From: Eunapius fragilis | Lineage: Eukaryota; Porifera; Demospongiae; Spongillida; Spongillidae | Direction of reading: 5' to 3' | NCBI GenBank assembly: GCA_963681505.1 | Contig: OY811981.1 | Coordinates: 6,368,307-6,432,306, forward strand | Length of the DNA stretch: 64,000 nt | In this document: one piece after another, positions 6,615 through 32,023 of the stretch | Numbering within the stretch: position 1 is the first letter of the stretch | How the letters are laid out: the number at the start of each line of letters is the position of its first letter | Translations under genes and position numbers: made by a program | The notes under the pieces: generated by a model | Seen by the model: the letters and a program-made list of their open reading frames with translations, nothing else | Database searches by the model: none | What the model was told of the DNA's origin: nothing

Positions 6615-7737
6615 TTTATGTCCAGATCCAACATTCATTAACGCACCTTCGGGGTGGTCGCTTTGATGGTCCTTTCAGTAGCGCGCTTGACACCTTGTCG
6701 TGTCTTGTATTGCACTCGTTTGGCATATCTGTAGGTGTACGAGTGGCTTGTTGACATTGTTGTTGCCGGGTTTTTTTTCTGTAAGGGCGGTGGTGTGGGG
6801 GAGACACATTCTAATTGGAGCCTCTTGCTTCACATTATCTGCTGTAGACTGTATACCGTAGTATCTGATCGCGTATGTAGTTCCACCGACAGAATTCGAA
6901 AGTTATGCTATATAAGAAGCTATAGTATAGAAATCAATTCGGTCAAAACAATTATATGCGATAGTGTCGTGTACTTACGTGTATGGTAGTTTTGGCTTTC
7001 ATTTCAAGCTGCGTAACGAATGATAGGAGTTGAGAGTAACGCACAGGCGTCATGCAGAAAATGATACCTTGAATATTCGTCAGGAGCCTTCCTATAACGT
7101 TATCGCTGCTCCATTCCGTTTCTCAACAATTTGGCATTATGGTTGGACATTTATACATGGAGCCGTAGGGACCCGAAAAGGCTCTTGGATTCAGTGCGTA
7201 TACCTCTTCCACAGCGTGCGGGAATATTAAGAATTTGAATCACGCCCACGACACGTGGCTATTATTGCATTTAAAAATAGCTAGCTGATGTAATTGGGTA
7301 TTTTTAACCGAATACCAAATGAGGTACTATTCGCTTTAGTTAATTGCCCGAACAGTTAGGCGTCTAACAGACCCCCGAAGATAACCTGCGGACGCATCCT
7401 GAAGCGATTGGTACACTTGGCGTGCTTTACAAACGTTCCTGTCGTGAGTTATACTCTCCGGAAGGAAGAAGAAGAATAAGAGGAGGAGAAATTTTAGGTG
7501 GGACTGGGTACGGACGATGGGGACGAGTATTTTTGTTCTCTAAAAGTACACCGTCTTGTGACACAAATACAACGCAGAACTGTTGTCCTTTTTTATATCG
7601 CTCGAATGCCACTAAGAGCGATTCGGAAGTGACCCGATTCTTAAATGTCCCGCTAGACGTGAGTGACGTTTTTTTAATGACATTCATGATACTGTTGGAT
7701 TCCTATATGGAACCTACTCGCGTAGGTTCCGATTATA
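6615..7737. other. Unassigned non-coding stretch
   Basis: No convincing gene, RNA or transposon end was identified. There is a small hairpin at about 7709-7730 (GGAACCTAC / GTAGGTTCC, 4-nt loop) just before the TATA that precedes the foldback-family end at 7738. Confidence 0.4.
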
Positions 7738-8471
7738 TGGGTCAGTTTCCGCGAAAATGAGCCTTCGCTATAATATTTTAAAGTTATAAAAATGACTCAT
7801 GTTTGAATCGCTATAACTTCAGAACGGTAAACACTATTGACTTCCTATTTTCAACACTTCATACTACATCATTTTCCTCTGGTAAAATCGATTATGGGCT
7901 CTTGCATTAGCTTCGTGCCAGTGTTACAGCGTCCGATACCTCTTGGGGTTCAAATCCGCCATATCTTTCTGCAGGAAAATTCAATTCACTCCTAGTTTGG
8001 TTTGTACGTAGAGGGATTTCTTTACCCGTTACGGCCGGGGATACAACTGTGCAAAGTAATTGCATATTTCCCGGTCGTTTCGCGTCATTTATCTATTACG
8101 ACTGGCATCCAGGACATGAAATGCAAATTACTTCCTGTTAAATAACTATGTCTCCGCCCATCTATACACTGTACGCGGCGTTTTCGCTTCTTGCAAACGT
8201 CTGGTTCTGTTCCCCTCCTTGGCTTCTTCAACATAGCGAGCAGAAGCTAAAGATTCTTAATACGTGGGTTCAGCTGCCATCAGCCTGCGCAACACGGTAC
8301 GCACTCTGTAGCGCATGCACGTAGAAATCGAGCGTGTTGGCTCGATCAAACTGCTTCATTTATGCGTGCACAACGCTGAAGAGGATGAAAGTGCACGGTG
8401 TTTAGGGCTAGCTTAATCTGAAACGCACCCTTCCATTTTGACTTCTGCACGCATAGATATATATATATATA
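7738..8471 (+). mobile_element. Diverged foldback-family terminal unit (left)
   Basis: It starts TGGGTCAGTTTCCGCG after TATA. Its first ~420 bp are recognisably homologous to the terminal arms at 8472 and 16513: shared blocks GCTATAACTTC, CTTCCTATTTTCA, CTTGGGGTTCAAA and TACGTAGAGGGA in the same order. The rest (to a (TA)n run at 8455-8471) is matched in inverted orientation by 29270-30047. Together these two segments bracket the whole foldback complex like an older pair of terminal arms. No coding capacity is seen. Confidence 0.75.
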
Positions 8472-9640
8472 TGGGAAAGTTTCCGAGAAAAGGGACCTAG
8501 CGTGTATTTTATAAAAGCATAATAAAAATGCACCACGTTTGAAATACTATAACTTCCGAACGGTTAATGCTACCGTCTTCCTATTTTCAGCACTTCATAA
8601 TGCACCATTTCTCTATGATAAAATACATTTGGGGATCTTCAACGTGCTCCATGCCAGTGTCGCGATGTCCGATACCCCTTGGGGTTCAAACTCCCCATAT
8701 CTTTCGGCAGGAAATCTCAATTCATTCCAAAATTGATTTATACGTAGAGGGATCCTGTGCCTATCGATTTGTCCTGTTCGTTAATTTTTACATTACCCGT
8801 TACAAAGATATTGCTTTGCAAAGTAGGAACATATTTCCCGCTCGATTCGCGCCATTCTATGGCCAGAGACAGCATGAATATTAAACTCTTCCTGTTGATA
8901 ACCTATTACCACGCCTACAAGACCCTATTGCGTGATGGCGTTGCACATCGATCGTTGATTTGGTGTACAGCATACGGTAAGTTAAGATTGTCAACGTTCT
9001 TCGATGTAGGCACAGATAAGGCAGCATGGCGCCGTATAACACGAGTGGAGACGAGCCGACTCGTTAATTTGATTGCAACGGTTAGGCCGGTACGATATTC
9101 AGGTCGAGGACGAGGACGGCGTGCATGGTTGAGAGCGTTGATGCTGATGACGATGGTAATTATGGCAATTTCGATGGTTATGATTGACGACAACGATGTT
9201 GACAATAAATTTGATGACGGCGAGTCCAAGTTGAAGTGATGGTGGTAATGAAGGTGTTAATTGTAATGCAAGTAATGATGATGGTAGTGGTGGTGGTGGC
9301 CCAGGTTTGCGTTAAAACTAGAAAAACCCGTCCAGCTGAATGTCTACCTCACTAGAGAAGGTTACTGCAAAACAGCTGCTCAATGAAGTACCGTGATATG
9401 CTCACATTATAGACTGGCCAAGAAAATCAGAATGGTGCTGAGACAAGGGCATAGGTCCTCATCTTGGTTTACACGTCCTTGTGAACTTTTGCACACACTT
9501 GCATTGTTACGAGTACACCATTGTATGGCGAATTCTTGTACAAACACACACACACATGCACATACATATCTTCACCCATATACACAAGCATTTTGTTCCA
9601 TTTAACTGCTTGTATGTGATCTGTATCCCACTACTCTAGA
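8472..9640 (+). repeat. Unit 1 left terminal arm
   Basis: An inverted repeat of about 1.17 kb, matched by 15353-16508. It contains short open frames on both strands, including a stretch rich in Asp/Met codons (GATGAC repeats near 9140-9290), but they are mirrored in every arm copy and have no recognisable domain. It ends at a CA-rich tract (9541-9575) and TAGACAGCCATGCAGTGG, where the satellite begins. Confidence 0.85.
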
Positions 9641-11490
9641 CAGCCATGCAGTGGACACTACTATAGACAGCTGTGGAGTGGACACCACTGTAGATAGCTG
9701 TGGAGTGGACACTACTGTAGACAGCTGTGGAGTGGACACTACTGTAGACAGCTATGCAGTGGATACTACTATAAGACAGCTGTGGAGTGGACACTACTGT
9801 AGACAGCTGTGGAGTGGACACTACTGTAGACAGCTGTGGAGTGGACACTACTGTAGACAGCTGTGGAGTGGACACTAATGTAGACAGCTGTGGAGTGGAC
9901 ACTACTGTAGACAGCTATGCAGTGGACACTACTGTAGACAGCTGTGGAGTGGACACCACTGTAGATAGCTATGGAGTGGACACTACTGTAGAAAGCTATG
10001 CAGTGGACACTACTGTAGACAGCTATGCAGTGGACACTACTGCAGACAGCTATGCAGTGGACACTACTGTAGACAGCTGTGGAGTGGACACCACTGTACA
10101 TAGCTGTGGAGTGGACACTACTGTAGACAGCTGTGGAGTGGAACGACTGTAGACAGCTGTGGAGTGGAACTACTGTAGACAGCTGTGGAGTGAACACTAC
10201 TATAGACAGCTATGCAGTGGACACTACTATATAGATAGCCGCGGAGTGGACACTACAGTCGACAGCTGTGGAGTGGACACTGCTGTATGGACAGCTGCAG
10301 AGTGGACACTACTGTAGACAGCTGTAGAGTGGACACTACTGTAGACAGCTGTAGAGTGGACACTAACTGTAGACAGCTGTGGAGTGGACACTACTGTAGA
10401 CAGCTATGCAGTGGACACTACTGTAGACAGCTGTGGAGTGGACGCTACTGTAGACAGCTGTGGAGTGGACACTACTGTAGACAGCTGTGGAGTGGACACT
10501 ACTGTAGACAGCCATGCAGTGGACACTACTGTAGACAGCTGTGGAGTAGACACTACTGTAGACAGCTGTGGAGTGGACACTACTGTAGACAGCTATGCAG
10601 TGGACACTACTGTAGACAGCTGTGGAGTGGACACTACTGTAGACAGCCATGCAGTGGACACTACTGTAGACAGCTGTGCAGTGGACACTACTGTAGACAG
10701 CTGTGGAGTGACACTACTGTAGACAGCTGTGGAGTGGACACTACTGTAGACAGCTATGCAGTGGACGCTACTGTAGACAGCCATGCAGTGGAAACTACTG
10801 TAGACAGCTGTGGAGTGGACACTACTGTAGACAGCTGTGGAGTGGACACTACTGTAGACAGCTATGCAGTGGACACTACTGTAGACAGCTGTGGAGTGGA
10901 CGCTACTGTAGACAGCTGTGGTGTGGACACTACTGTAGACAGCTGTGGAGTGGACACTACTGTAGACAGCCATGCAGTGGACACTACTGTAGACAGCTGT
11001 GGAGTGGAAACGTCTGTAGACAGCTGTGGAGTGGACACTACTGTAGACAGCTATGCAGTGGACACTACTGTAGACAGCTGTGGAGTGGACACTACTGTAG
11101 ACAGCCATGCAGTGGACACTACTGTAGACAGCTGTGCAGTGGACACTACTGTAGACAGCTGTGGAGTGGAAACGTCTGTAGACAGCTGTGGAGTGGACAC
11201 TACTGTAGACAGCTGTGGAGTGGACACTACTGTAGACAGCCATGCAATGGGCACTACTGTAGACAGCTGTGGAGTGGACACTACTGTAGAAAGCTATGCA
11301 GTGGACACTACTGTAGACAGCTATGCAGTGGACACTACTGTAGACAGTTATGCAGTGGACACTACTGTAGACAGCTGTGGAGTGGACACTACTGTAGACA
11401 GCTATGCAGTGGACACTACTGTAGACAGCTGTGGAGTGGACACTACTGTAGACAGGTATGGAATGGAAACTACTGCCGACAGCTGTATTT
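9641..11490 (+). repeat. 27-bp satellite array 1 (forward, about 68 copies)
   Basis: The repeat unit is 27 bp with the core ACAGCTGT and the near-palindrome CTACTGTAG. Length divided by 27 gives about 68 copies. Common variants replace TGTGGAG by TATGCAG or CATGCAG. Rare marked units at 10141-10260 (one-base losses, and GCCGCGG) recur in array 2. Because 27 is a multiple of 3 and the common unit has no stop in most frames, very long open frames appear on both strands; they are artefacts. Confidence 0.95.
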
Positions 11491-12905
11491 AAGTTTACCC
11501 CGACTTGCAGATAGCTATGCAGTACCCCATAGCGGAGTGCTATGGAGTACATAATATAGCAGATTATGGATTTATAGCCAAAAGAAAGAACCTGCAGCAA
11601 ACAGCAGTGAAGTCGACTCACACTACATTACTGCAGACATCTAAGCTATATGAGTCCCCACATATAACAGTAGACAGCTGTAGAGTACTCCATGACAGTT
11701 GGCTATAAGGTCTATGCCATGCCTATTGCGTCGTCAACCCTATGCTGTGTCCATGCCATCATTGTTTGTCTGTGGTTACTCTTTAGCTGACTGCAAAAGC
11801 ATCCACTCCACAGCTGAATTCCACAGCTGTTTGGCGTGGGTCCACTTTAGTATGGCAAGTGTACAGTGCAGTAGACATATGTGGAGTAGACTCTGTGGCA
11901 GATACATGTAGCTGTCCTGGAACAGGCAGACAGCTTTGGAGTATGTACCACAATCAACAACTGTTGAGTGGTCAGTGGAGCAGACAGCCATGAAGGAGAC
12001 CTTACTGCCAACTGTGGAGTGATTTACTATAACAGACAGCTCTAATGTCAGACGAGCTAAATGCAGCAGACAGTTGTGAAAGGGACCCACCACAGACTGT
12101 GTTATATATGCTAGTAGCTATTTATTGCAGATTACCTGAACACCTTTATTGAACGTTATCAACTGTAATTCCTGCTGTACATGCTTGTTCGTTTCATGTG
12201 TGTAAAGTACATACCTCTAGAGGTTTCAAAACGTGCCTGGGCCTTTGCATTCTGAGAACATTTCCTGCCTATATAAACTTTACCACGGGCCCTGACCAAC
12301 CCAAATCAGTACATGTAAGAGATAGGCTAGTAATGATAATCACAATTCAAGCGCCTGTACCTCAAGTAATGAATATTGTTACTGGCTATCATATTGGATT
12401 TAGAAGGTCGGGCATTAGGAAAATAGCTCAGGTTGCATTGACTTGACTCAACAGCCATAGGATACTAGTAAGGTTAAACAAAGGTGTTCAAGTGATCTTT
12501 AAGAAATAGCTACTCATGATCATTTCTCCGCTTGAACCCACTCCTCAAGATCACCTCAAAACAACTGGTAAACCATTACCACCGTCCTAGGACTGTTGAG
12601 TGAAGTATACAACTGCAGTTCCTGTACATGTACAAGTACGTACAGCAATCCAATTTTATCAGGTCAGCGTTCGACCTTACCAATCAGTAGTGAGAGCTAG
12701 TAATGATATTCATTGCTTAAAACACCCGCTTTGAGTTGTAAATATCATTACTAGCCCTACCTCTAACTGATTTGGGTTGGTCAGGGCCCGTGGTAAAGTT
12801 TACATACGTAGGAAATGTTTTCAGGATGCAAGGACCAGGCACGTTTTGAAACCTCTAGAGGTACGTATTTTAAAATGTAACTGAACAAGCATGTACAGCA
12901 GGATA
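11491..12905. repeat. Unit 1 interior
   Basis: About 680 bp next to array 1 contains degenerate relatives of the 27-mer (for example TCCACTCCACAGCTG at 11799-11813). It is followed by an inverted pair sharing CCACGGGCCCTGACC, TTTCAAAACGTGCCTGG and CTGTACATGCTTGTTC. The centre is about 12470-12630. The same interior occurs at 19149-20560. No gene is seen. Confidence 0.75.
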
Positions 12906-15352
12906 ATAGCGTCCACTCCACAGCTGTCTACAGTAGTGTCCACTCCACAGCTGTCTACAGTAGTGTCCACACTCCACAGCTGTGTACAGTAGTGTCCACT
13001 GCATAGCTGTCTACAGTAGTGTCCACTGCATAGCTGTCTACAGTAGTGTCCACTGCATAGCTGTCTACAGTAGTGTCACTCCACAGCTGCAGCTGTGGAG
13101 TGACACTACTGTAGACAGCTATGCAGTGGACACTACTGTAGACAGCTGTGGAGTTTACACCGCTGTAGACAGCTAGCTGTCTACAGCGGTGTAAACTCCA
13201 CAGCTGTCTACAGTAGTGTCCACTGCATAGCTGTCAACAGTAGTGCCCACTCCACAGCTGTCTACAGTAGTGTCCACTCCATAGCTGTCTACAGACGTTT
13301 CCATTCCACAGCTGTCTACAGTAGTGTCCACTCTACAGCTGTCTACAGTAGTGTCCACTGCATAGCTGTCTACAGTAGTGTCCACTCCACAGCTGTCTAC
13401 AGTAGTGTCCACTCCACAGCTGTCTACAGTAGTGTCCACTCTGCAGTTGTCTACAGTAGTGTCCACTCTGCAGCTGTCTATAGTAGTGTCCACTCCACAG
13501 CTGTCTACAGTAGTGTCCACTCTACAGCTGTCTACAGTGGTGTCCACTCTACAGCTGTCTACAGTAGTGTCCACTCTACAGCTGTATACAGTAGTGTTCA
13601 CTCCACAGCTGTCTACAGTAGTGTCCACTCTGCAGCTGTCTACAGTAGTGTCCACTCTGCAGCTGTCTACAGTAGTGTCCACTCCACAGCTGTCTACAGT
13701 AGTGTCCACTGCATAGCTGTCTACAGTAGTGTCCACTCCACAGCTGTCTACAGTAGTGTTCACTCCACAGCTGTCTACAGTAGTGTCCACTCCACAGCTG
13801 TCTACAGTAGTGTCCACTCTGCAGCTGTCTACAGTAGTGTCCACTCTGCAGCTGTCTACAGTAGTGTCCACTCCACAGCTGTGTACAGTAGTGTCCACTC
13901 TACAGCTGTCTACAGTAGTGTTCACTCCACAGCTGTCTACAGTAGTGTCCACTCTACAGCTGTCTACAGTGGTGTCCACTCCACAGCTGTCGACTGTAGT
14001 GTCCACTCTGCAGCTGTCTACAGGAGTGTCCACTCTGCAGCTGTCTACAGTAGTGTCCACTCTGCAGCTGTCTACAGTAGTGTCCACTCTGCAGCTGTCT
14101 ACAGTAGTGTCCACTCCACAGCTGTCTACAGTAGTGTCCACTCCACAGCTGTCTTATAGTAGTATCCACTGCATAGCTGTCTACAGTAGTGTCCACTCCA
14201 CAGCTGTCTACAGTAGTGTCCACTCCACAGCTATCTACAGTAGTGTCCACTCTACAGCTGTCTACAGTAGTGTCCACTCCACAGCTATCTACAGTAGTGT
14301 CCACTCTACAGCTGTCTACAGTAGTGTCCACTCTACAGCTGTCTACAGTGGTGTCCACTCTACAGCTGTCTACAGTAGTGTCCACTCTGCAGCTGTCTAC
14401 AGTAGTGTCCACTCCACAGCTGTCTACAGTAGCGTCCACTCTACAGCTGTCAACAGTAGTGTCCACTCCACAGCTGTCTACAGTAGTGTCCACTCTGCAG
14501 CTGTCTACAGTAGTGTCCACTCCACAGCTGTCTACAGTAGTGTCCACTCTACAGCTGTCTACAAGTGTCCACTCTACAGCTGTCTACAGTGGTGTCCACT
14601 CTACAGCTGTCTACAGTAGTGTCCACTCCACAGCTGTCGACTGTAGTGTCCACTCCGCGGCTATCTATATAGTAGTGTCCACTGCATAGCTGTCTATAGT
14701 AGTGTCCACTCCACAGCTGTCTACAGTAGTCCCACTCCACAGCTGTCTACAGTCGTTCCACTCCACAGCTGTCTACAGTAGTGTCCACTCCACAGCTGTC
14801 TACAGTAGTGTCCACTCTACAGCTGTCTACAAGTGTCCACTCTACAGCTGTCTACAGTGGTGTCCACTCTACAGCTGTCTACAGTAGTGTCCACTCCACA
14901 GCTGTCTACAGTAGTGTCCACTCTACAGCTGTCTACAAGTTTCCACTCTACAGCTGTCTACAGTGGTGTCCACTCTACAGCTGTCTACAGTAGTGTCCAC
15001 TCCACAGCTGTCGACTGTAGTGTCCACTCCGCGGCTATCTATATAGTAGTGTCCACTGCATAGCTGTCTATAGTAGTGTCCACTCCACAGCTGTCTACAG
15101 TAGTTCCACTCCACAGCTGTCTACAGTCGTTCCACTCCACAGCTGTCTACAGTAGTGTCCACTCCACAGCTGTCTACAGTAGTGTCCACTCCACAGCTGT
15201 CTTATAGTAGTATCCACTGCATAGCTGTCTACAGTAGTGTCCACTCCACAGCTGTCTACAGTAGTGTCCACTCCACAGCTATCTACATGCAGTGGTGTCC
15301 ACTCCACAGCTGTCTATAGTAGTGTCCACTGCATGGCTGTCTAGAGTAGTGG
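12906..15352 (-). repeat. 27-bp satellite array 2 (reverse, about 90 copies)
   Basis: This is the reverse complement of the array 1 unit. The inner end (12980-13260) has TATGCAG-type units. The bulk has CTCTACAG and CTCTGCAG variants. A block of about 210 bp at 14563-14780 is repeated at 14937-15145, with shared oddities (a shortened unit, CCGCGGCTATC, AGTCGTTCC), so there is a higher-order duplication. A small palindrome sits at 13079-13096 and another at 13160-13200, where orientation flips briefly. Confidence 0.95.
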
Positions 15353-16508
15353 GATACAGATCACATACAAGCAGTTAAATGGAACAAAATGCTTGTGTAT
15401 ATGGGTGAAGATATGTATGTGCATGTGTGTGTGTGTTTGTACAAGAATTCGCCATACAATGGTGTACTCGTAACAATGCAAGTGTGTGCAAAAGTTCACA
15501 AGGACGTGTAAACCAAGATGAGGACCTATGCCCTTGTCTCAGCACCATTCTGGTTTTCTTGGCCAGTCTATAATGTGAGCATATCACGGTACTTCATTGA
15601 GCAGCTGTTTTGCAGTAACCTTCTCTAGTGAGGTAGACATTCAGCTGGACGGGTTTTTCTAGTTTTAACGCAAACCTGGGCCACCACCACCACTACCATC
15701 ATCATTACTTGCATTACAATTAACACCTTCATTACCACCATCACTTCACCTTGGACTCGCCGTCATCAAATTTATTGTCAACATCGTTGTCGTCAATCAT
15801 AACCATCGAAATTGCCATAATTACCATCGTCATCAGCATCAACGCTCTCAACCATGCACGCCGTCCTCGTCCTCGACCTGAATATCGTACCGGCCTAACC
15901 GTTGCAATCAATTTAACGAGTCGGCTCGTCTCCACTCGTGTTATACGGCGCCATGCTGCCTTATCTGTGCCTACATCGAAGAACGTTGACAATCTTAACT
16001 TACCGTATGCTGTACAGCAAATCAACGATCGATGTGCAACGCCATCACGCAATAGGGTCTTGTAGGCGTGGTAATAGGTTATCAACAGGAAGAGTTTAAT
16101 GTTCATGCTGTCTCTGGCCATAGAATGGCGCGAATCGAGCGGGAAATATGTTCCTACTTTGCAAAGCAATATCTTTGTAACGGGTAATGTAAAAATTAAC
16201 GAACAGGACAAATCGATAGGCACAGGATCCCTCTACGTATAAATCAATTTTGGAATGAATTGAGATTTCCTGCCGAAAGATATGGGGAGTTTGAACCCCA
16301 AGGGGTATCGGACATCGCGACACTGGCATGGAGCACGTTGAAGATCCCCAAATGTATTTTATCATAGAGAAATGGTGCATTATGAAGTGCTGAAAATAGG
16401 AAGACGGTAGCATTAACCGTTCGGAAGTTATAGTATTTCAAACGTGGTGCATTTTTATTATGCTTTTATAAAATACACGCTAGGTCCCTTTTCTCGGAAA
16501 CTTTCCCA
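15353..16508 (-). repeat. Unit 1 right terminal arm
   Basis: Inverted copy of 8472-9640 with only scattered differences. It abuts unit 2 across the 12-bp palindrome CCCATATATGGG (16505-16516). Confidence 0.85.
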
Positions 16509-16512
16509 TATA

Positions 16513-17822
16513 TGGGAAAGTTTCCGAGAAAAGGGACCTAGCGTGTATTATAAAAAAGTATTATAAAAGTGCATTACGTTTGAATTGCTATAACTTCCGA
16601 ACGGTTAACGCTATCGTCTTCCTATTTTCATCACTTCATACTACACCATTTCTCTATGGTAAAATACATTTCGGGATCTTGAACATGTTCCATGCCAGTG
16701 TCGCGATGTTCGGTACCCCTTGGGGTTCAAACTCCCCATATATGTCGGCAGGAAATTACAATTCATTTCAAAATTGGTTTATACGTAGAGGGATCCTGTG
16801 CCTATCGATTTGTCCTGTTCGTTAATTTTTACATTACCCGTTACAAAGATATTGCTTTGCAAAGTAGGTACATATTTCCCGCTCGATTCGCGCCATTCTA
16901 TGGCCAGAGACAGCATGAATATTAAACTCTTCCTGTTGATAACCTATTACCACGCCTACAAGACCCTATTGCGTGATGGCGTTGCACATCAATCGTTGAT
17001 TTGCTGTACAGCATATACGGTAAGATTGTCAACATTCTTCGATGTAGGCACACATCCAGATAAGCAGCATGGCGCCGTATAACACGAGTGGAGACGAGCC
17101 GACTCGTTAATTTGGTTGCAACGGTTAGGCCGGTACGATAACCACGATATTCAGATCGAGCACGAGGACGGCGTGCATGGTTGAGAGCGGTGATGGTGAT
17201 GACGATGGTAATTTGGTAATTTCGATGGTTATGATTGACGACAACGATGTTGACAATAAATTTGATGACGGCGAGTCCAAGGTGAAAGTGATGGTGGCGA
17301 TGAAGGTGTTAATTGAAATAGAAGTAATGATAATGATGATGATGGTAGTGGTGGTGGTGGCTCAGGTGTGCGTTAAAACTAGAAAAACCCGTCCAGCTGA
17401 ATGTCTACCTCACTAGAGAAGGTTACTGCAAAACAGCTGCTCAATGAAGTACGGTGATATGCTCACATTATAGAGATTGACCAAGAAAACCCGAATGGTG
17501 CTGAGACAAGGGCAATCAGATGGCACCATCAAGGTTTGTATGTGTATGGCGCATCACCCTTCTGTAGTCAGGGAAAAAAGGTAGTGTATTATACGCTTTA
17601 CTATTTGCCTTAGCCTTCGTCATGTAGTTTTAACTCACACATAGGTCCTGATCTTGGTTTACACGTCCTTGTGAACTTTTGCACACACTTGCATTGTTAC
17701 TAGTACACCATTGTATGGCGTATTCTTGTACAAACGCACACACATGCACATACATATCTTCACCCATATACACAAGCATTTTGTTCCATTTAACTGCTTG
17801 TATGTGATCTGTACCCCACTAC
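16513..17822 (+). repeat. Unit 2 left terminal arm
   Basis: Homologous to 8472-9640 but with unit-2-specific changes: the extra 127 bp at 17515-17641, an extra ACATCC before AGATAAGCAGC near 17052, and an inserted ACCACGATA near 17140. All are shared with the unit 2 right arm. Confidence 0.85.
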
Positions 17823-19148
17823 TCTAGACAGCCATGCAGTGGACACTACTATAAGACAGCTGTGGAGTGGACACTACTGTAGACAGCTGTGAAGTGGATG
17901 CTACTGTAGACAGCTTTGAAGTGGACACTACTGTTGACAGCTGTAGAGTGGACACTACTGTAGACAGCTGTGGAGTGGACACTGCTGTAGACAACTGTGG
18001 AGTGGACACTACTGTAGACAGCTGTGGAGTGGACACTACTGAAGACAGCTGTGGAGTGGACACTACTGTAGACAGCTGTGGAGTGGACACTACTGTAGAC
18101 AGCTGTGGAGTGGACACTACTGTAGACAGCTGTAGAGTGGACACTGCTGTAGACAGCTGTGGAGTGGACAGTACTGTAGACAGCTGTGGAGTGGACACTA
18201 CTGTAGACAGCTGTGGAGTGGACACTACTGTAGACAGCTGTGAAGTGGACGCTGCTGTAGACAGCTGTAGAGTGGACACTACTGTAGACAGCTGTGAAGT
18301 GGATACTACTGTAGACAACTGTGGAATGAACACTACTGTAGACAGCTGTGGAGTGGACACTACTGTAGACAGCTGTGGAGTGGACACTACTGTAGACAGC
18401 TGTGGAGTTGACACTACTGTAGACAGCTGTGGAGTGGACACTACTGTAGACAGCTGTGGAGTGGACACTACTGTAGACAGCTGTGAAGTGGACACTACTG
18501 TAGACAGCTGTGGAGTGGACACTACTGTAGACAGCTGTGAAGTGGACGCTACTGTAGTCTGTAGACAGCTGTAGAGTGGACACTACTGTAGACAGCTGTG
18601 AAGTGGACACTACTGTAGACAGCTGTGAAGTGGATACTACTGTAGACAACTGTGGAATGAACACTACTGTAGACATCTGTGGAGTGGACACTACTGTAGA
18701 CAGCTGTGGAGTGGACACTACTGTAGACAGCTGTGGAGTGGACACTACTGTAGACAGCTATGGAGTGGACACTACTGTAGACAGCTGTAGAGTGGACACT
18801 ACTGTAGACAGCTGTGAAGTGGACGCTACTGTAGATAGCTGTGGAGTGGACACTACTATAGACAGCTGTGGAGTGGACACTACTGTAGACAGCTGTGAAG
18901 TGGATGCTACTGTAGACAGCTGTGAAGTGGACGCTACTGTAGATAGCTGTGGAGTGGACACTACTATAGACAGCTGTGGAGTGGACACTACTGTAGACAG
19001 CTGTGAAGTGATGCTACTGTAGTCTGTAGACAGCTGTGGAGTGGACACTACTGTAGACAGCTGTGAAGTGGACACTACTGTAGACAGCTGTAGAGTGGAC
19101 ACTACTGTAGACAGCTGTGGAATGGAAACTACTGCCGACAGCTGTTTT
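17823..19148 (+). repeat. 27-bp satellite array 3 (forward, about 49 copies)
   Basis: Units mostly read TGTGGAG, TGTAGAG or TGTGAAG before TGG. The TGTGAAG variant is frequent here and in array 4 but was not noticed in arrays 1 and 2. A 12-base irregular unit (CTACTGTAGTCTGTAG) at 18549-18564 and 19015-19030 recurs reversed in array 4. Confidence 0.95.
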
Positions 19149-20560
19149 TAAATGTACCCTGACTTGCAGACAGCTATCAGTACCCCATAGTGGAGTGCTA
19201 TGGAGTATACCATATGGCAGATTATGGAGTCATAGCCAAAAGAAAGAACCTGCAGCAAACATCAGCTAAGTCGACACACACTACATTACTGCAGACATCT
19301 AAGCTATGAGTCCCCACATACAACAGTAAGACAGCTATAGAGTACTCCATGACTGTTGGCTATAAGGTCTACGCCATGCCTGTAGCGTCGTCAACCCTAT
19401 GCTGTGTCCATGCCATCATAGTGGTCTGTGGTTACTCCTTAGCTGACTGCAAAAGCATCCACTCCACAGCTGAATTCCACAGCTGTTTGCCGTGGGTCCA
19501 CTTTAGTATGGCAAGTGTACAGTGCAGTAGACATATGTGGAGTAGACTCTATGGCAGATACATGTAGCTGTCCTGGAGCAGGCAGACAGCTTTCACTACA
19601 GTCAACAACTGTGGAGTGGTCAGTGGAGCAGACAGCCACGAAGGAGACCTTACTGCCTGCTGTGGAGTGATTTACTATAACAGACAACTCTAATGTCAGA
19701 CGAGCTAAATGCAGCAGACAGTTGTGAAAGGGACCCATGCACCCCCAGACCATGTTATGTATGCTAGTAGCTTTTTCTTGCAGATTACCTGAACACCTTT
19801 ATGAACGTTATCAAATGTAATTCCTGCTGTACATGGTTGTTCGTATCATATGTGTAAAGTACATACCTCTGGAGGTTTCAAAACGTGCCTGGGCCTTGCA
19901 TTCTGAGAACATTTCCTACGTACATAAACCTTACCACGGGCCCTGACCAACCCAAATCAGTAAGAGATAGGGCTAGTAATGGTAATCACAATTCAAGCGT
20001 TTGTACTTCAAGTAATGAATATTGTTACTGGCTATCATTGGGTTTAGAAGGTCGGGCACTAGGAAGGTCAGAAGCAGCTCAGGTTGCATTGACTTGACTC
20101 AACAGCTATAGGATACTAGTAAGGTTAAACGAAGGTGTTCAAGTTATCTTTAAGAAATAGCTACTCGTGATCATTTCTCTACTTGAACCCACTCCTCAAG
20201 ATCACCTCAAAACCATTGGTAAACCCTTACCACCGTCCTAAGACTGTTGTGTGAAGTATACAACTGCAGTTCCCGTACATGTACAAGTATGTACAGCAAT
20301 CCAATTTTATCTGGTCAGCGTTCGACCTTACCAATCAGTAACGAGAGTTAGTAATGATTTCATTGCTTAAACGCACCAGTTTGAGTTGTAAATATCATTA
20401 CTAGCCCTATCTCTAACTGATTTGGGTTGGTCAGGGCCCGTGGTAAAGTTTACATACGTAGGAAATGTTTTCAGGATGCAAGGCCCAGGCGCGTTATGAA
20501 ACCTCTAGCAGTACGTATTTTAAAATGTAACTGAACAAGCATGTACAGCAGGAATAATAG
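19149..20560. repeat. Unit 2 interior
   Basis: Homologous throughout to 11491-12905, with small indels. It includes the inverted pair around the CCACGGGCCCTGACC block (about 19930 and 20440). No gene is seen. Confidence 0.75.
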
Positions 20561-23500
20561 CTCTACAGCTGTCTACAGACTACAGTAGCATCCACTTCAC
20601 AGCTGTCTACAGTAGCATCCACTTCACAGCTGTCTACAGTAGTGTCCACTCCACAGTTGTCTACAGTAGTGTCCACTCCACAGCTGTCTACAGTAGTGTA
20701 CACTCCACAGCTGTCTACAGTAGTGTCCACTCCACAGCTATCTACAGTAGCGTCCACTTCACAGCTGTCTACAGTAGTGTCCACTCTACAGCTGTCTACA
20801 GACTACAGTAGCATCAGTTCACAGCTGTCGACAGTAGTGTCCACTCTACAGCTGTCTACAGTAGTGTCCACTCTACAGCTGTCTACAGACTACAGTAGCA
20901 TCCACTTCACAGCTGTCTACAGTAGTGTCCACTCCACAGCTGTCTACAGTAGTGTCCACTCCACAGCTATCTACAGTAGTGTCCACTTTACAGCTATCTA
21001 CAGTAGTGTCCACTCTACAGCTGTCTACAGTAGTGTCCACTCCACAGCTGTCTACAGTAGTGTCCACTCCACAGCTGTCTACAGTAGTGTCCACTCCACA
21101 GCTGTCTACAGTAGCATCCACTTCACAGCTGTCTACAGTAGTGTCCACTTCACAGCTGTCTACAGTAGTGTCCACTCTACAGCTGTCTACAGTAGTGTCC
21201 ACTCCACAGCTGTCTACAGTAGTGTCCACTCCACAGCTGTCTACAGTAGTGTCCACTCCACAGCTGTCGACAGTAGTGTCCACTCCACAGCTGTCTACAG
21301 TAGTGTTCATTCCACAGTTGTCTACAGTAGTATCCACTTCACAGCTGTCTACAGTAGTGTCCACTCTACAGCTGTCTACAGCAGCGTCTACTTCACAGCT
21401 GTCTACAGTAGTGTCCACTCCACAGCTGTCTACAGTAGTGTCCACTTCACAGCTGTCTACAGTAGTGTCCACTCTACAGCTGTCTACAGTAGTGTCCACT
21501 CCACAGCTGCTACAGAAGTGTCCACTCCACAGCTGTCTACAGTAGTGTCCACTCTACAGCTGTCTACAGTAGTGTCCACTTCACAGCTGTCTACAGAAGT
21601 GTCCACTCTACAGCTGTCTACAGTAGTGTCCACTCCACAGCTGTCTACAGTAGTGTCCACTCCACAGTTGTCTACAGTAGTGTCCACTCCACAGCTGTCT
21701 ACAGTAGTGTCCACTCCACAGCTGTCTACAGTAGTGTCCACTCCACAGCTGTCTACAGTAGTGTTCATTCCACAGTTGTCTACAGTAGTATCCACTTCAC
21801 AGCTGTCTACAGTAGTGTCCACTCTACAGCTGTCTACAGCAGCGTCTACTTCACAGCTGTCTACAGTAGTGTCCACTCCACAGCTGTCTACAGTAGTGTC
21901 CACTTCACAGCTGTCTACAGTAGTGTCCACTCTACAGCTGTCTACAGTAGTGTCCACTCCACAGCTGCTACAGAAGTGTCCACTCCACAGCTGTCTACAG
22001 TAGTGTCCACTCTACAGCTGTCTACAGTAGTGTCCACTTCACAGCTGTCTACAGAAGTGTCCACTCTACAGCTGTCTACAGTAGTGTCCACTCCACAGCT
22101 GTCTACAGTAGTGTCCACTCCACAGTTGTCTACAGTAGTGTCCACTCCACAGCTGTCTACAGTAGTGTCCACTCTACAGCTGTCTACAGTAGTGTCCACT
22201 CCACAGCTGTCTACAGAAGTGTCCACTCCACAGCTGTCTACAATAGTGTCCACTTCACAGCTGTCTACAGTAGTGTCCACATCACAGCTGTCTACAGTAG
22301 TGTCCACTCCACAGCTGCTACAGAAGTGTCCACTCCACAGCTGTCTACAGTAGTGTCCACTCTACAGCTGTCTACAGTAGTGTCCACTTCACAGCTGTCT
22401 ACAGAAGTGTCCACTCTACAGCTGTCTACAGTAGTGTCCACTCCACAGCTGTCTACAGTAGTGTCCACTCCACAGTTGTCTACAGTAGTGTCCACTCCAC
22501 AGCTGTCTACAGTAGTGTCCACTCCACAGTTGTCTACAGTAGTGTCCACTCCACAGCTGTCTACAGAAGTGTCCACTCCACAGCTGTCTACAATAGTGTC
22601 CACTTCACAGCTGTCTACAGTAGTGTCCACATCACAGCTGTCTACAGTAGTGTCCACTTCACAGCTGTCTACAGTAGAGTCCACTCCACAGCTGTCTACA
22701 GTAGTGTCAACTCCACAGCTGTCTACAGAAGTGTCCACTCCACAGCTGTCTACAGTAGTGTCCACTTCACAGCTGTCTACAGTAGTGTCCACTCTACAGC
22801 TGTCTACAGACTACAGTAGCGTCCACTTCACAGCTGTCTACAGTAGTGTCCACTCTACAGCTGTCTACAGACTACAGTAGCATCCACTTCACAGCTGTCT
22901 ACAGTAGTGTCCACTCCACAGCTGTCTACAGTAGTGTCCACTCCACAGCTATCTACAGCAGCGTCCACTTCACAGCTGTTAACAGTAGTGTCCACTTCAC
23001 GGCTGTCTACAGTAGTGTCCACTCCACAGCTGTCTACAGTAGTGTCCACTCTAGCTGTCTACAGTAGTGTCCACTTCACAGCTGTCTACAGTAGTGTCCA
23101 CTCCACAGCTGTCTACAGTAGTGTTCATTCCACAGTTGTCTACAGTAGTATCCACTTCACAGCTGTCTACAGTAGTGTCCACTCTACAGCTGTCTACAGC
23201 AGTGTCCACTTCACAGCTGTCTACAGTAGTGTCCACTCCACAGCTGTCTACAGTAGTGTCCACACCACAGCTGTCTACAGTAGTGTCCACTCCACAGCTG
23301 TCTACAGCAGTGTCCACTCCACAGCTGTCTACAGTAGTGTCCACTTCACAGCTGTCTACAGCAGTGTCCACTCCACAGCTATCTACAGTAGTGTCCACTT
23401 CACAGCTGTTAACAGTAGCGTCCACTTCACAGCTGTCTACAGTAGTGTCCACTCCACAGCTGTCTACAGTAGTGTCCACTCCACAACTATCTACAGTAGC

Positions 23501-24728
23501 GTCCACTTCACAGCTGTTAACAGTAGCGTCCACTTCACAGCTGTCTACAGTAGTGTCCACTCTACAGCTGTCTACAGACTACAGTAGCATCACTTCACAG
23601 CTGTCTACAGTAGTGTCCACTTGACAGCTGTCTTCAGAAGTGTCCATTCCACAGCTGTCTACAGTACTGTCTACAGACTACAGTAGCATCACTTCACAGC
23701 TGTCTACAGTAGTGTCCACTTGACAGCTGTCTACAGAAGTGTCCACTCCACAGCTGTCTACAGTAGTGTCCACTCTACAGCTGTCTACAGACTACAGTAG
23801 CATCCACTTCACAGCTGTCTACAGTAGTGTCCACTCCACAGCTGTCTACAGTAGTGTCCACTCCACAGCTGTCTACAGTAGTGTCCACTCCACAGCTGTC
23901 TACAGTAGTGTCCACTCCACAGCTGTCTACAGTAGTGTCCACTCCACAGCTGTCTACAGTAGTGTCCACTCTACAGCTGTCTACAGTAGTGTCCACTCCA
24001 CAGCTGCTATAGAAGTGTCCACTCCACAGCTGTCTACAGTAGTGTCCACTCCATAGCTGTCTACAGTAGTGTCCACTCTACAGCTGTCTACAGTAGTTTC
24101 CATTCCACAGCTGTCTACAGTAGTGTCCACTCTACAGCTGTCTACAGACTACAGTAGCGTCCACTTCACAGCTGTCTACAGTAGTGTCCACTCCACAGCT
24201 GTCTACAGTAGTGTCCACTCCACAGTTGTCAACAGTAGTGTCCACTCTATACAGCGTTCTACAGTAGCATCCACTTCACAGCTGTCTATAGTAGTGTCCA
24301 CTTCACAGCTGTCTACAGTAGTGTCCACTCTACAGCTGTCTACAGTAGTGTCCACTTCACAGCTGTCTACAGCAGTGTCCACTCTACAGCTGTCTACAGT
24401 AGTGTCCACTCCACAGCTGTCTACAGTAGTGTCCATTCCACAGCTGTCTACAGTAGTGTCCACTCCACAGCTGTCTACAGTAGTGTCCACTCCACAGCTG
24501 TCTACAGTAGTGTCCACTCCACAGCTGTCTACAGTAGTGTCCACTCCACAGTTGTCTACAGCAGTGTCCACTCCACAGCTGTCTACAGTAGTGTCCACTC
24601 TACAGCTGTCAACAGTAGTGTCCACTTCAAAGCTGTCTACAGTAGCGTCCACTTCACAGCTGTCTACAGTAGTGTCCACTCCACAGCTGTCTTATAGTAG
24701 TGTCCACTGCATGGCTGTCTAGAGTAGT
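20561..24728 (-). repeat. 27-bp satellite array 4 (reverse, about 154 copies) with higher-order repeats
   Basis: The largest array. A marked stretch GTGTTCATTCCACAGTTG at about 21303 recurs at about 21762, a 459-bp step (17 x 27). The shortened unit CAGCTGCTACAGAAGTG recurs at about 21507, 21965 and 22317. Irregular GTCTACAGACTACAGTAG joins are scattered through it. This pattern indicates unequal exchange or replication slippage in blocks of many units. Confidence 0.95.
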
Positions 24729-25537
24729 GGGGTACAGATCACATATAAGCAGTTAAATGGAACAAAATGTTTGTGTATATGGGTGAAGATATGTATGTGC
24801 ATGTGTGTGCGTTTGTACAAGAATACGCCATACAATGGTGTACTAGTAACAATGCAAGTGTGTGCAAAAGTTCACAAGGACGTGTAAACCAAGATCAGGA
24901 CCTATGTGTGAGTTAAAACTACATGACGAAGGCTAAGGCAAATAGTAAAGCGTATAATACACTACCTTTTTTCCCTGACTACAGAAGGGTGATGCGCCAT
25001 ACACACACAAACCTTGATGGTGCCATCTGATTGCCCTTGTCTCAGCACCATTCGGGTTTTCTTGGTCAATCTCTATAATGTGAGCATATCACCGTACTTC
25101 ATTGAGCAGCTGTTTTGCAGTAACCTTCTCTAGTGAGGTAGACATTCAGCTGGACGGAAGTTTTAACGCACACCTGAGCCACCACCACCACTACCATCAT
25201 CATCATTATCATTACTTCTATTTCAATTAACACCTTCATCGCCACCATCACTTTCACCTTGGACTCGCCGTCATCAAATTTATTGTCAACATCGTTGTCG
25301 TCAATCATAACCATCGAAATTACCAAATTACCATCGTCATCAGCATCACCGCTCTCAACCATGCACGCCGTCCTCGTCCTCGATCTGAATATCGTGGTTA
25401 TCGTACCGGCCTAACCGTTGCAACCAAATTAACGAGTCGGCTCGTCTCCACTCGTGTTATACGCCGCCATGCTGCTTATCTGGATGTGTGCCTACATCGA
25501 AGAATGTTGACAATCTTACCGTATATGCTGTACAGCA

Positions 25538-26925
25538 CAAGGCCGTAGATAAGGGGGAGCTTGGGGGGGCACGTGCCCCCCCAAAATTTCTGTGACATTT
25601 TAAAATTATTACAGTGCAATCACGTGCGTGGCAATCGCAATGTCAATATTGAAGTATATTGTGTCGAAACGGCCCGCGGTATCATCAAAGGAGGATTCTG
25701 ATGTCCGACAAACTTCGGGTAATACAGGCTCAGCTCAGGTAATACTTCACTCAAGTGAATCTAGTAGCGAGCCTATAAGCGGGAGTAATGAAGTCGTAGG
25801 CCTATTGGAAGAATGCGGTCATGATGAAGCAAATGCACCTGATTCACCATCCCCCACTACCAGTCCTGTGACCTGTACCAGAATTCTCCCATTAAAGCCC
25901 AATCAGCCCAGGCTGAAGTTTCCTATGAGGCAGTTTGGTAGTAAGCGTTGTAGCTTTTGTTACTCGTGGTATGAAAAGTATACCGCTGGTTGCATTACAT
26001 TGAAGAAGAAGATGCCGTCTTATGCTTCTATTGCGCTACTGCAGTCCAGTTAAAGATGCCAATGAGAGGATACATGGATACAGTATTTAGTACTTCTGGA
26101 TTCTTTAACTGTGTGAAGTACTGGAATACCCGCGCTCGACAGCCTGTTATGAATCACTATCAGCTTAGAGCAGCGATAAGAATCACACAGCAATAGGCAC
26201 ACAAATAACATCAGTTCGCGCCTCCGTCCGTCCGTCGGTATGCCAGTCTCCAATGATCTGATCTTCCTCTGCTGAGCGGCAGCTTAAGTACCTGCGCTGA
26301 ATCTTCTAGAAGGTTCTCAAGGGTTAAATTAGGCAATTACCATTACACAATAAATGACAATACTACAAACTGGAAAAAAGCATTAGATAAATTCAGCAAG
26401 CACGATCAATCAGCATGCCTTTGCGATGCTCTTAGCATGGTTGCAGCAGCTTCGACAGAGACAATGAATGTGGGTACACAACTAAGTGCTGAATATACTG
26501 AACATAAAGCTTTAAACAGAAAATGTCTTTTCAAACATTCGCTTCTTAGCACGGTAAGGTTTGGCTTTACGTAGAGCGCATTATGATGCTGATATGACTT
26601 CAGATAGCAATGCACCAATCAAGGTTAAACTGATGCATGCTACTGCATGTTCACAAAGATGAAACAGACAAGCTTGACCTTGCAACCATTGGCAATGAAT
26701 TTGCAAGCCGCAATTCCAGTCGCCAAGAAGTGTTTGGTATTTTTCCTTAATGAGTGTATATGATAACGCGCGCATGCATGCAAAATATGGTTCAAATCAA
26801 ATTGTGATCGAAGAATTGTGCCTACATGTAGGCTTTTACGTACATGGCATACCTATAAAATTTAGACCACATTGACATTCAGACTATTGTGCCCCCCCAA
26901 ACTATAAAAGTTATCTACGGCCCTG
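25538..26925. mobile_element. hAT-like DNA transposon remnant inserted in foldback arm
   Basis: Ends are CAAGGCCGTAGATAA and, reversed, CAGGGCCGTAGATAA. The arm sequence it interrupts is known from three other arm copies; CAGCA is present on both sides (25533-25537 and 26926-26930), an apparent 5-bp duplication rather than the 8 bp normal for hAT. Next to the left end is a perfect palindrome GGGGGGGCACGTGCCCCCCC (about 25564-25583). It carries the 5' part of a transposase ORF on the plus strand. Confidence 0.75.
25628..26195 (+). pseudogene. N-terminal fragment of hAT-type transposase (TTF/ZMYM1-like zinc finger region)
   Basis: An open frame from 25628 has a Ser/Glu-rich N-terminus and then the stretch LKFPMRQFGSKR...YSWYEKYT. 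A frameshift near 25990-26000 moves into a second frame with EEEDAVLCFYC and TSGFFNCVKYWN. Tryptophan/tyrosine-rich WYxKY followed by DAxLCFYC is the signature of the TTF-type domain at the N-terminus of ZMYM1/hAT-like transposases. The catalytic core and hAT dimerisation region are absent, so this is a deletion derivative. 26196-26925 shows no further recognisable coding. Confidence 0.65.
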
Positions 26926-27032
26926 CAGCAAATCAACGATTGATGTGCAACGCCATCACGCAATAGGGTCTTGTAGGCGTGGTAATAGGTTATCAACAGG
27001 AAGAGTTTAATATTCATGCTGTCTCTGGCCAT

Positions 27033-27964
27033 GACATCTCCATTAGCTACGTGTAAGGAGGTGAAGCAGAGGCCAGTCTATAGCTGATGCCTCTGTCCAT
27101 AGAACTCAGCAACAAGTGGAAACACTCACCCCAGATCATAATAATTGGTGTCATAAAACAGGCATACTTTCGATCTTTGTGGCCTGGGCATCCATGCTGT
27201 GTATAGTGTTAGGGGTTTGGATAGGTGGTGGACAGGTCTAGAGCCATGAGCCTTACCAAAGCTTCTAGCAATACACTGAGGTGGAAATCACTGAGCCTAT
27301 TGTGGTTAGCAGGCTTATCAGGATGGTGGGGGTAGTCAACCTATGGCATGAGATGAGTCCACACAGACATGGATGGGTCAAAGTGAAGGGCAATTAATGG
27401 AATCACAGAAAGCCAGCTCAGAAACTATCTCTCGGAGATTCTTCTTAGCCTGGATACATGTACATGTCTTGTATATTGAAAACCTCAACGGCTATGGGTG
27501 TTGATGGTGTATGGTTGTGCACCTACCTAGCTGCTGGCGCTACTCAACCTGACAAGTTTAGTACTTAGAATCATGGGACATGAGCATCTAGTGTAGGTGA
27601 TGGGACATGAGCATCTAGTGGAGGCCATGGGTACATCAGTGGAAGCCAAACAGGAGCAGCAGAAGAAAAAAAAAATCAAAATTGTATATGAGGTGAATTA
27701 AGGACCAACAGGCTCTAATGGTGGAGGTACAAGTGTTAGTGTACCAAGCAGAGTGGAGAGTGGGTGGTTTGCACTTGTGTATGTGTATGTGTTTGTGCAT
27801 GCATGCCTGTGTGCATAAGTGTGAATTCTTGTAGTGCAGGCTCACATCTAGTAAGTGTGCTCATAGCAACAAGAGACAACAAGGAAATTAGAATTTTACA
27901 AAGCAGACGCCAGTTCTGTGTATGTGTGTGTGCATGTGTGTGTGTGTGTATGATGGATGACTGC
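27033..27964. other. Unassigned segment
   Basis: It starts at the truncation point of foldback unit 2. The minus strand between about 27480 and 27040 gives long semi-open translation with only a couple of stops, possibly a decayed exon; no family was recognised. The segment also contains poly-A (27665-27675). Confidence 0.3.
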
Positions 27965-28452
27965 CAAAGCCATTTTTATGTGTACATATGCACATGTTTG
28001 GGATTGAAGCATGACTCCTGTGTGTGTGTGTACATGAATGTGCGTGCATGTGCATGTGGGTTTGTGTGCATGTGTGTGTGTGTGTGTGTGGGTGCATGTG
28101 CATGCATTCATGTATGTCTAAAAGTGCAAAAGGCAACAAGAAGACCTGTTGGTAATTGCCAGAGCAAAAAAACACAAATTTACACAAACAATAAACATGT
28201 GACTGCAGTTGCAAGTAGTGCTTGTATGTGTGTGCATGCATAAACGTGCACATTGATACACAAGACAATTTCGAAAAAGGTACGGCTCCAATAGAAATAC
28301 AAAAGAGAAGCATGTGATGAATAGGATGACAGCTAAAAACAGTTTAATGTTTGTGGGTCGACAATTAGGAAATAAAATAAATTGCAATAGCAAAGCATTG
28401 ATGTTGATGCATGAATGACTGACTGCCCATGGTGTGTGTGTGTGCACATGTA

Positions 28453-28491
<39 letters not shown>

Positions 28492-29268
28492 GTGTGAGTG
28501 TTCATGTGTGTGTATAAGTGCACATTGCAACACTAAATTTCTAGCCTGGAGTATTTTCTGGGAAAGCCTCACTTTCATTCTACCCTGAGCCTAAATGTCT
28601 GGAAAAGCCTTGCCTCCATTTAACTCATTCCCTCACTTTCACTCATACCCCATCTAACACACTGTCCCCAAAATATTGACACCTGGTATGGTTGCAGGTC
28701 ACACATGTATGTATAAAGGATGGTAGAGGTGGGCTGCAATCACTCCAGCTAAATGCCAGCTGCGTTGCTTACCATGGCTGTACGTATAAATGTATTGCTA
28801 CAGGTGTTATTGTTTATACATCAATGGCAGGTAGCACCCTTATGGCTTTTACCCTGGCCTAACCACCTTACCTTGACCAGCATCAAGGTGTGAGCTGACC
28901 AAATGGTAACCTTGGTTCCAGTCACACTCAGGGTAGGGGACAGCAAACCCACAGTCGCCTGACCCCTTTTGGGCAAAAAATCAACTATGCCAAGCACACC
29001 ACCAATTGGAAACTAAGCATGAGGGAGCATTCTGACAGAATTAAATGACACCAATTCCTCTGATCTGAGGTTGTGTATGGATGTGAGTGTGTGCATGTGT
29101 GTGACTTGTGGATCTTATTTTGTATGGATATTATTTTGTAGAACCAAATATAATTGGTTCACCAATGAAGATAAATTAAACAAGAAAGAGGTTTTAGTAG
29201 TCCAATGAGAGTACTACATGTTGGTAAATACATGTAGCTACAAGGAGGTGCATGTTTGATATACATGT
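27965..29268 (-). repeat. CA/TG-rich dispersed repeat, copy A (inverted)
   Basis: It shares with copies B and C, in inverted order, blocks such as ATCAAACATGCACC, TTGGTGAACCA, CAATACATTTATA and CCTACCCTGAG. It contains long TG microsatellites (28020-28105, 28433-28500). Its inner end abuts the TA run of the foldback-family unit at 29270. Confidence 0.8.
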
Positions 29269-29269
29269 A

Positions 29270-30047: not shown

Positions 30048-30061
30048 TATATATATATATA

Positions 30062-30823: not shown

Positions 30824-30867
<44 letters not shown>

Positions 30868-31051
30868 GCACACACACACTATGGGCAGTCAGTCATTCAC
30901 GCATCATCATCAATGCTTTGCTATTGCAATTTATTTTATTTCCTAATTGTCGACCCACAAACATTAGACTGTTTTTAACTGTCATCCTATTCATCACATG
31001 CTTCTCTTTTGTATATCTATTGGAGCCGTACCTTTTTCTAAATTGTCTTCT
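30062..31051 (+). repeat. CA/TG-rich dispersed repeat, copy B
   Basis: Direct relative of copy C and inverse of copy A. It includes a (CA)n tract at 30822-30865. It breaks off at about 31051, where a fragment of the foldback-family unit follows. Confidence 0.8.
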
Positions 31052-31172
31052 GCTTCATTTATGCGTGCACGCTGCAGAGCATGAAAGTGCACGGTGCCTA
31101 GGGCTAGCTTAATCTGAAACGCACCCTTCCTTTTTGACTTCTGCACATGCACAGATATATATATATATATCA
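31052..31172 (+). mobile_element. Fragment of foldback-family unit
   Basis: About 105 bp match the inner end of 7738-8471 (CTGCTTCATTTATGCGTGC through CTTCTGCAC and a (TA)n run). It sits exactly between copies B and C, which suggests the unit and the CA/TG repeat move or duplicate together. Confidence 0.7.

Positions 31173-31313: not shown

Positions 31314-31357
<44 letters not shown>

Positions 31358-31989: not shown

Positions 31990-32023
<34 letters not shown>

Follow-up and report, generated by a model that had tools for sequence, protein, structure and literature searches.

In the Foldback (FB) elements of Drosophila the terminal repeats are long, inverted, and themselves made up of short tandem units, and these elements duplicate 9 bp of their target, the P element duplicating 8 bp. 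Most elements of foldback form have been assigned to Mutator, although a few belong elsewhere, Galileo for instance to the P superfamily (PMC4079207, in the part cited). The present work concerns two adjacent elements of this general form, here called E1 (8472–16508) and E2 (16513–27032), in a stretch of 64,000 nucleotides from the sponge Eunapius fragilis (the window), which corresponds to C11:6368307–6432306 of an assembly of 219 Mb in 24 contigs; positions given without a label are those of the window.

Among the closest described systems are Galileo and Tetris. Galileo has long inverted arms, internal tandem repeats that vary independently on each side, and arms that grow by recruiting internal DNA, and in these traits the sponge elements are like it; unlike them, it has a P-type transposase, 7-bp flanks, and repeats of ~210 bp in 2–3 copies (PMC3573991, PMC3688188, in the passages cited). 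Tetris, from Drosophila virilis, is likewise a non-autonomous foldback in which a flanking domain is followed by tandem repeats and then by an inner domain; it shares its end with a miniature inverted-repeat transposable element (MITE), DAIBAM, its autonomous copy was not found according to the part of the account cited, and its repeats feed satellite growth and have seeded a satellite (PMC4079207). However, the repeats of Tetris measure 220 bp, with 3–4 copies in the described allelic pair and up to 66 in satellite arrays, its duplications are of 8–10 bp, and three complete copies are reported in that part (PMC4079207), whereas the sponge elements have a 4-bp ANNT flank, 31 tip pairs, and repeats of 27 bp, of which the arrays of 11 elements contain from 19 to 279 each. 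They also differ from FB, in that the arrays begin 1.16 kb inside the element and the duplication is of 4 bp.

The evidence set out below leads us to regard E1 and E2, with a probability of about 0.9 that leaves aside the kind of transposase involved, as copies of a DNA transposon that is non-autonomous and of foldback architecture, with long inverted arms and tandem repeats around a short middle. The architecture is already known, and what is apparently new is the family, its size, and its insertion target: no account of this family, or of any foldback family that duplicates AWWT, was found in the titles and abstract openings of the open literature, a weak kind of evidence with Repbase outside its scope. 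An earlier, sequence-only reading of the window had proposed an undescribed non-autonomous family recalling Foldback and Galileo. As far as tested, the first part is borne out by many copies, target-site duplications, paralogous empty sites, and the literature search; of the second, the likeness in architecture stands, but not membership, since the duplication is a 4-bp ANNT.

A dispersed family

At least 54 sequences of the assembly match the arm of E1, counting fragments, and many of them form inverted pairs ~6–19 kb apart (the best 40 of 1,845 candidates were scored), so that the arm is not confined to this locus, as had been considered possible. The ends of the family read TGGGAAAGTTTCC..., the tip form being also written TGGGAMAGTYTCC. 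The terminal 26-mer, with up to two mismatches, has 79 matches in the assembly against 0 for a reversed control, and a 34-letter tip pattern with its flanks has 82 against 0; chance is excluded as the source of the recurring tip.

The structure of 13 copies was mapped, under labels of loci taken from the assembly (C4a, for example, lies on contig C4, and C2b on C2), and 11 of them show the order arm, array, spacer of ~1.4 kb, inverted array, and arm. The arm is usually of ~1.16 kb, reaching 1.29–1.30 kb in E2 and C4b, and the spacers are found in either orientation relative to E1. Departures from the plan are of several kinds: C23a has no spacer and its arrays abut head to head; in C4b (L012–L013) the two arrays are separated by 5,000 consecutive N, which may be a gap in the assembly or sequence that was withheld; C5 carries an insertion of 7.55 kb in its right arm with what by eye are transposon-like open reading frames (ORFs); C2a (L009–L010) carries one of ~10.3 kb in its left arm at arm position 877–882, where the arm coordinates overlap by 6 bp and repeats of GGGAG type are seen; and in C18b the left arm is interrupted near the tip.

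The 27-bp unit follows the same distribution. With up to two mismatches it occurs 3,048 times in the assembly, 1,892 of these inside the fetched copies, and among 100 exact occurrences listed, all on C1, 98 form clusters that coincide with or adjoin tips of the family, the other 2 lying elsewhere.

Target sites and transposition

The flanks, eight bases per tip, were read at 80 of the 82 pattern matches, two tips of a sister family being left out. When tips converge within 25 kb of one another they can be paired, and the resulting set of 31 includes small MITEs and relatives with 317-bp arrays that have the same tip, as well as the pair of E1 itself (C11 6376778/6384814, ATAT/ATAT). The same 4-bp ANNT flank (ATAT, AAAT, ATTT, or ACAT) is present on both sides in 29 of the 31 pairs. 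Shuffling the right flanks gave a mean of 20.6 agreements, and 29 were reached in 1 of 10,000 shuffles; among the seven pairs other than ATAT/ATAT, five match (AAAT twice, ATTT once, ACAT twice). Insertions are found most often at ATAT, frequently within (TA)n or next to related elements.

Sites resembling the state prior to insertion were looked for by joining the flanks of seven elements (the best 40 of 2,367 candidates were scored). For C1a, a 27-mer foldback of 10 kb, a paralogous empty site (L054, 95% identity) has a single ATAT in place of the two that border the insertion at the filled site; for L039, a relative with a 317-bp array, the empty paralogues L053 (99%) and L055 with L056 (86%) have a single AAAT. 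The search for further copies and for empty sites at TA or TATA, which the sequence-only reading had suggested, was thus positive, with 79 tips and a single ATAT or AAAT at the empty sites. Taken together, the shared flanks and the empty paralogues show transposition with target duplication, and real insertions rather than artefacts of assembly.

Several observations weigh against this account. ATAT predominates, and agreement is cheap there, as the shuffled mean of 20.6 of 31 indicates; two of the pairs disagree (a 403-bp MITE on C11 and the pair on C23, both AAAT/ATAT), and two of the matching pairs are ACAT, which lies outside AWWT. Among the matches listed there was no empty site for C4a, C13, C4b, or C18a, and the joined flanks of C6a match across the junction at places that bear a MITE. 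Finally, the array lengths all derive from one assembly. This last point touches on whether the inverted arrays could be a satellite that was collapsed or mirrored in assembly, since satellites in inverted arrangement are difficult to assemble and C4b has its run of N between the arrays; however, one plan recurs at many loci with arrays of differing length and with spacers in both orientations, the targets are duplicated, and an element with the 27-mer has an empty counterpart, so that an artefact is extremely improbable. Very improbable too, if a little less so, is that the palindromes serve the host as an origin, a recombination hotspot, or a source of hairpin RNA: the argument for this is the structure, and it is opposed by the dispersed copies with target duplications, which point to a selfish element, and by Rfam, where no match at gathering thresholds was obtained in 7600–27100.

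With regard to the length of the duplication, the data fit both 4 bp (ANNT, with ends GGG...CCC) and 2 bp within A-NN-T (with ends TGGG...CCCA). A strict TA duplication, as in Tc1/mariner, was dropped, as pairs with AA, TT, and CA also match and 16 of the 80 tips have other dinucleotides. Neither does the ANNT flank agree with the TTAA of piggyBac and Kolobok, nor its 4 bp with the 7 bp of Galileo and the P superfamily or the 8–10 bp of Tetris and Mutator.

Organization of E1 and E2

E1 is intact, with 8,037 bp between its limits and with tips and ATAT at both ends. Its left target-site duplication lies at 8469–8472, where the final T doubles as the first base of TGGG, and the right one, from the reading of the flanks, at 16508–16511. 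The left arm (8472–9628, + strand), whose outer ~388 bp form a terminal module common to the sister families (78–85%), is followed by the left array (9629–11486, +; ~69 units), a spacer of 1.42 kb (11487–12906) with an inner inverted pair (12170–12410/12903–12672), the right array (12907–15350, −; ~90 units, its end being called at 15351 by Tandem Repeats Finder), and the right arm, placed by arm alignment (15351–16508, −). Compared arm to arm, the two are 99.57% identical over 1,158 bp, and self-comparison of the window gives a longer inverted repeat, 8467–11485 against 16513–13471, with 93.3% over 3,054 bp. The tip TGGGAAAGTTTCCGAGAAAAGGGACC is found at 8472 (+), 16508 (−), and 16513 (+), and between the tips of E1 and E2 there is TATA only. 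On its other side E1 adjoins, at 7738–8471 (+), an arm that belongs to X, a sister family of palindromes with the related tip TGGGTCAGTTTCCGCG, identified by self-comparison and by searching the assembly (the best 40 of 1,742 candidates were scored).

E2, of a second subfamily, follows the same layout by self-comparison, from a left arm of 1,304 bp (16513–17816, +), with ~125 bp extra beyond arm position 980, through the left array (17817–19145, +; ~49 units), a spacer of 1.43 kb (19146–20579) with an inner inverted pair (19820–19996/20555–20381; the two members of such a pair are 82–87% identical, in E1 as in E2), and the right array (20580–24729, −; ~152–154 units), up to a right arm in two parts. 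The inner part (24730–25534, −) is separated by an insertion of 1.39 kb (25535–26925) from a leftover outer part (26926–27032, −; arm positions 494–388), and the terminal 387 bp are absent. The break at 27032 thus falls at arm position 388, where the homology with the sister families also stops (385–389). The insertion ends in inverted repeats of 12 bp without a mismatch (GGCCGTAGATAA/TTATCTACGGCC) and has one ORF of 141 aa with no match in Pfam; it resembles a non-autonomous element of hAT type.

In both elements the consensus of the array is CACTACTGTAGACAGCTGTGGAGTGGA or its complement. The four arrays, first counted at about 68, 90, 49, and 154 units, measure 68.7, 90.2, 48.7, and 152.4 by Tandem Repeats Finder, and the interior with its own inverted pair, likewise noticed from the sequence, is seen in E1 and E2. 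The plan attributed to both holds fully for E1; E2 keeps the layout, but without a right tip and with its right arm split. In line with the earlier statement that no transposase is encoded, no gene of their own was found in the elements: three ORFs of the arms and the insertion (8757–9239, 15741–16223, and 25628–26053) have no match in Pfam, and eight of the ORFs of the arrays have matches only below the curated cut-offs, with no transposase among them.

Sister families and the candidate transposase

Elements with other interiors share the outer ~390 bp of the arm at ~78–85%: palindromes of the X type (L031, L052), palindromes of 6.4 kb (L034, L035), and elements with a 317-bp array (L039 and a second one, L057). 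Shorter parts of it are carried by MITEs, one of 403 bp with the same ends and no array (L037; 91% over 244 bp) and one of 815 bp (L038; 81% over 319 bp). Tips of the type TGGGWCAGTNTCC, taking the X and 6.4-kb forms together, number 307 in the assembly, and a MITE of ~252 bp with the tip TGGGACAGTGTCC has 2,077 tips. In the 6.4-kb palindromes, with the tip TGGGACAGTCTCC, all 27 pairs formed among 100 listed of 227 tips share their duplication, three of them being other than ATAT (ATTT, AAAT, ATTT). The same duplications across the sister types suggest that one targeting machinery probably serves all.

Beside E2, the window contains CA-rich inverted repeats of the X type (27968–32470 with 29259–30060; 86–93%) with an X-type end between them (tip at 30047), which have the form of a rearranged sister palindrome. 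Another 27-bp repeat, of ~2.4 copies, is present in the window (27572–27636), in L052 (1819–1882 and 5799–5863), and in L035 (3104–3168). This repeat, which occurs in the X family, is not related to the 27-mer of E1: the best agreement over rotations is 13 of 27, a level also attained by 173 of 500 shuffles.

An autonomous partner was sought between pairs of tips whose interior was not a known array. None of the fetched copies yielded a transposase that goes with these ends, Pfam profiling covering the ORFs of the window and four of L058, and the ORFs of the remaining copies being judged mostly by eye; the autonomous relative expected between similar ends is therefore missing from this set, a point that must be counted against the interpretation as a whole. 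The palindromes L034, L035, L031, and L052 showed no transposase of their own by eye (for L031, in the part of its ORF list that was seen), nor was a transposase-like ORF recognised by eye in L036, which has MITE copies at both ends. L052 has a transposase-like ORF of 743 aa within an apparent insertion, which by eye we presume to be hAT-like. L058, which contains pieces of the E1-type arm, is probably not the autonomous partner, for its DDE_Tnp_1_7 gene, of piggyBac type (L058:23–3155), sits in what looks like an insertion, bounded by ends of its own, CGGGGTATACCCCG, that are themselves palindromic. The transposase genes in L052, L058, and C5 look like separate insertions.

The nature of the mobilising enzyme is approached here from the duplications. 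Those of Sola2 are AT-rich tetranucleotides AWWT, namely ATAT, AAAT, and ATTT (PMC3627910, in the part cited), and 27 of the 29 matching pairs here are of these three forms, with two ACAT, in a set that the 2-bp reading within A-NN-T also fits. From this spectrum, the single basis of the assignment, a Sola2-like transposase has about an even chance. Against it, the terminal repeats of Sola2, of 12–21 bp, are far shorter than these arms; furthermore, the Sola2 elements described encode a transposase or a remnant of one, and the foldback form is unmentioned in the cited part of that account (PMC3627910).

An enzyme of the PHIS group, like that of ISL2EU, which would duplicate the 2-bp NN in A-NN-T from tips TGGG...CCCA, seems to us unlikely, although there is something to be said for it. 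The two lengths of duplication are indistinguishable in these data; the genome has at least 152 matches to DDE_Tnp_4 (150 of 327 candidates scored) and 118 to YqaJ, many of them ~1 kb apart on opposite strands; and ISL2EU has a target with outer A and T, A-AT-T, and ends that usually begin with GG (PMC4482050, in the part cited). However, ISL2EU is reported to duplicate AT, and here the inner two bases vary (TA, AA, TT, CA), ATAT, AAAT, ATTT, and ACAT being duplicated. In addition, 12 of the 152 DDE_Tnp_4 loci, explored on one side over the 2.65 kb upstream, showed neither a tip oriented as expected nor any similarity to L034 or the outer arm of E1; one of the loci tested, L051, has a single tip match with two mismatches in the other orientation. 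Among the DDE_Tnp_4/YqaJ pairs, of ISL2EU type, there are several sets with equal scores, perhaps from recent amplification.

Returning to the Sola2-like enzyme, a wider proposal may be made, to which we give slightly less than even odds: that one AWWT-targeting, probably Sola2-like transposase drove a genome-wide radiation of giant foldbacks, in at least four families that share little beyond the terminal module of ~390 bp (those with 27-bp arrays, those with 317-bp arrays, the CA-rich palindromes of type X, among them L031 of 7.8 kb, and the 6.4-kb palindromes), each of them independently capturing unrelated interior DNA that was turned into inverted arms and satellites. If this is true, the foldback form would be a reproducible outcome of end repair and not the accident of one lineage. 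An AWWT-duplicating family would in itself place foldback architecture in another transposase background, and in this one genome several sister families repeat that architecture.

Dynamics of the arms and arrays

The process could have run as follows. A transposase made elsewhere would recognise the shared terminal module and would move, by cut and paste, any DNA lying between two such ends; the long arms would pair during repair or replication and so be homogenised; the same pairing would invert and duplicate the internal DNA, satellites included; and unequal exchange or slippage would then lengthen the arrays.

Two near-identical copies, C4a and C2b, offer the clearest view of this last step. 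Their spacers are 100% identical, their arms 99.8–100%, and their right arrays identical; the left arrays show nine mismatches, yet gaps in length of 405 bp, exactly 15 units, and of 56 bp. This gap suggests gain or loss of units in blocks while few bases change, barring misassembly of one array, and the length of the arrays probably changes fast. With twins that differ by whole units, it would be possible to measure directly how fast, and by what mechanism, a satellite grows within a transposon.

Of 11 two-armed elements, six (E1, C13, C1a, C6a, C4b, and C5) have arms that match each other best in both directions, while in C23a and C4a this holds one way only and in C2b there is a tie. This pattern fits homogenisation within elements, with the exceptions of C18a and C18b, which speak against it, as each of their arms is closer to some arm other than its partner. 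In 10 of 11 elements, the left and right arrays resemble each other more over their outermost 400 bp than over their innermost; however, the outer ends are also somewhat closer between elements (medians of 92.0 against 89.6%), so that this is weak evidence for exchange inside an element.

As to the origin of the 27-mer, derivation from the arm was rejected, the best agreement being 16 of 27 where shuffles give 16–18; against the spacer the best match is 21 of 27, a raw score with no shuffle control. No unit within four substitutions was found in nine relatives (L031, L034, L035, L037, L038, L039, L052, L057, and L058). These data bear on whether the arrays have been selected as binding sites of the transposase, more units giving better mobilisation, as proposed for Galileo, whose tandem repeats bind its THAP domain (PMC3688188, in the part cited). 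Each consensus unit, as read from the sequence, contains the palindrome ACAGCTGT, and arrays are present in all 13 of the mapped copies, themselves picked by their arms; but nothing in the arm resembles the 27-mer above chance level, the unit is absent from the nine relatives, and we consider such selection improbable, more so than an enzyme of the PHIS group. Since the MITEs and sister families that lack the 27-mer share the ends, the arrays are probably not needed for end recognition. To judge from their sequence, they would most likely be passengers, at most accessory binding sites. For the host, long inverted repeats so dispersed would be candidates for ectopic recombination and chromosome inversions.

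Other features of the window

Beyond the elements, the window includes a 4.4-kb inverted duplication (32641–37090/58740–63159; 92%) of a gene for a protein of 1,058 aa (33585–36761), the second copy being split into two overlapping frames (59058–60164 and 60028–61968); among 120 relatives listed, this protein has one in Dysidea avara at 28% identity, and closer ones exist. Two gypsy-like retrotransposons (41674–45937 and 49937–54241) have reverse transcriptase, RNase H, and integrase above the Pfam cut-offs and gag and protease matches mostly below them, and each is flanked by direct repeats, of 123 bp in the one and 217 bp in the other, that are 99% identical. Finally, a run of 29 G (38335–38363) is followed 205 bp further on by a run of 30 C (38569–38598), with which it is able to pair.

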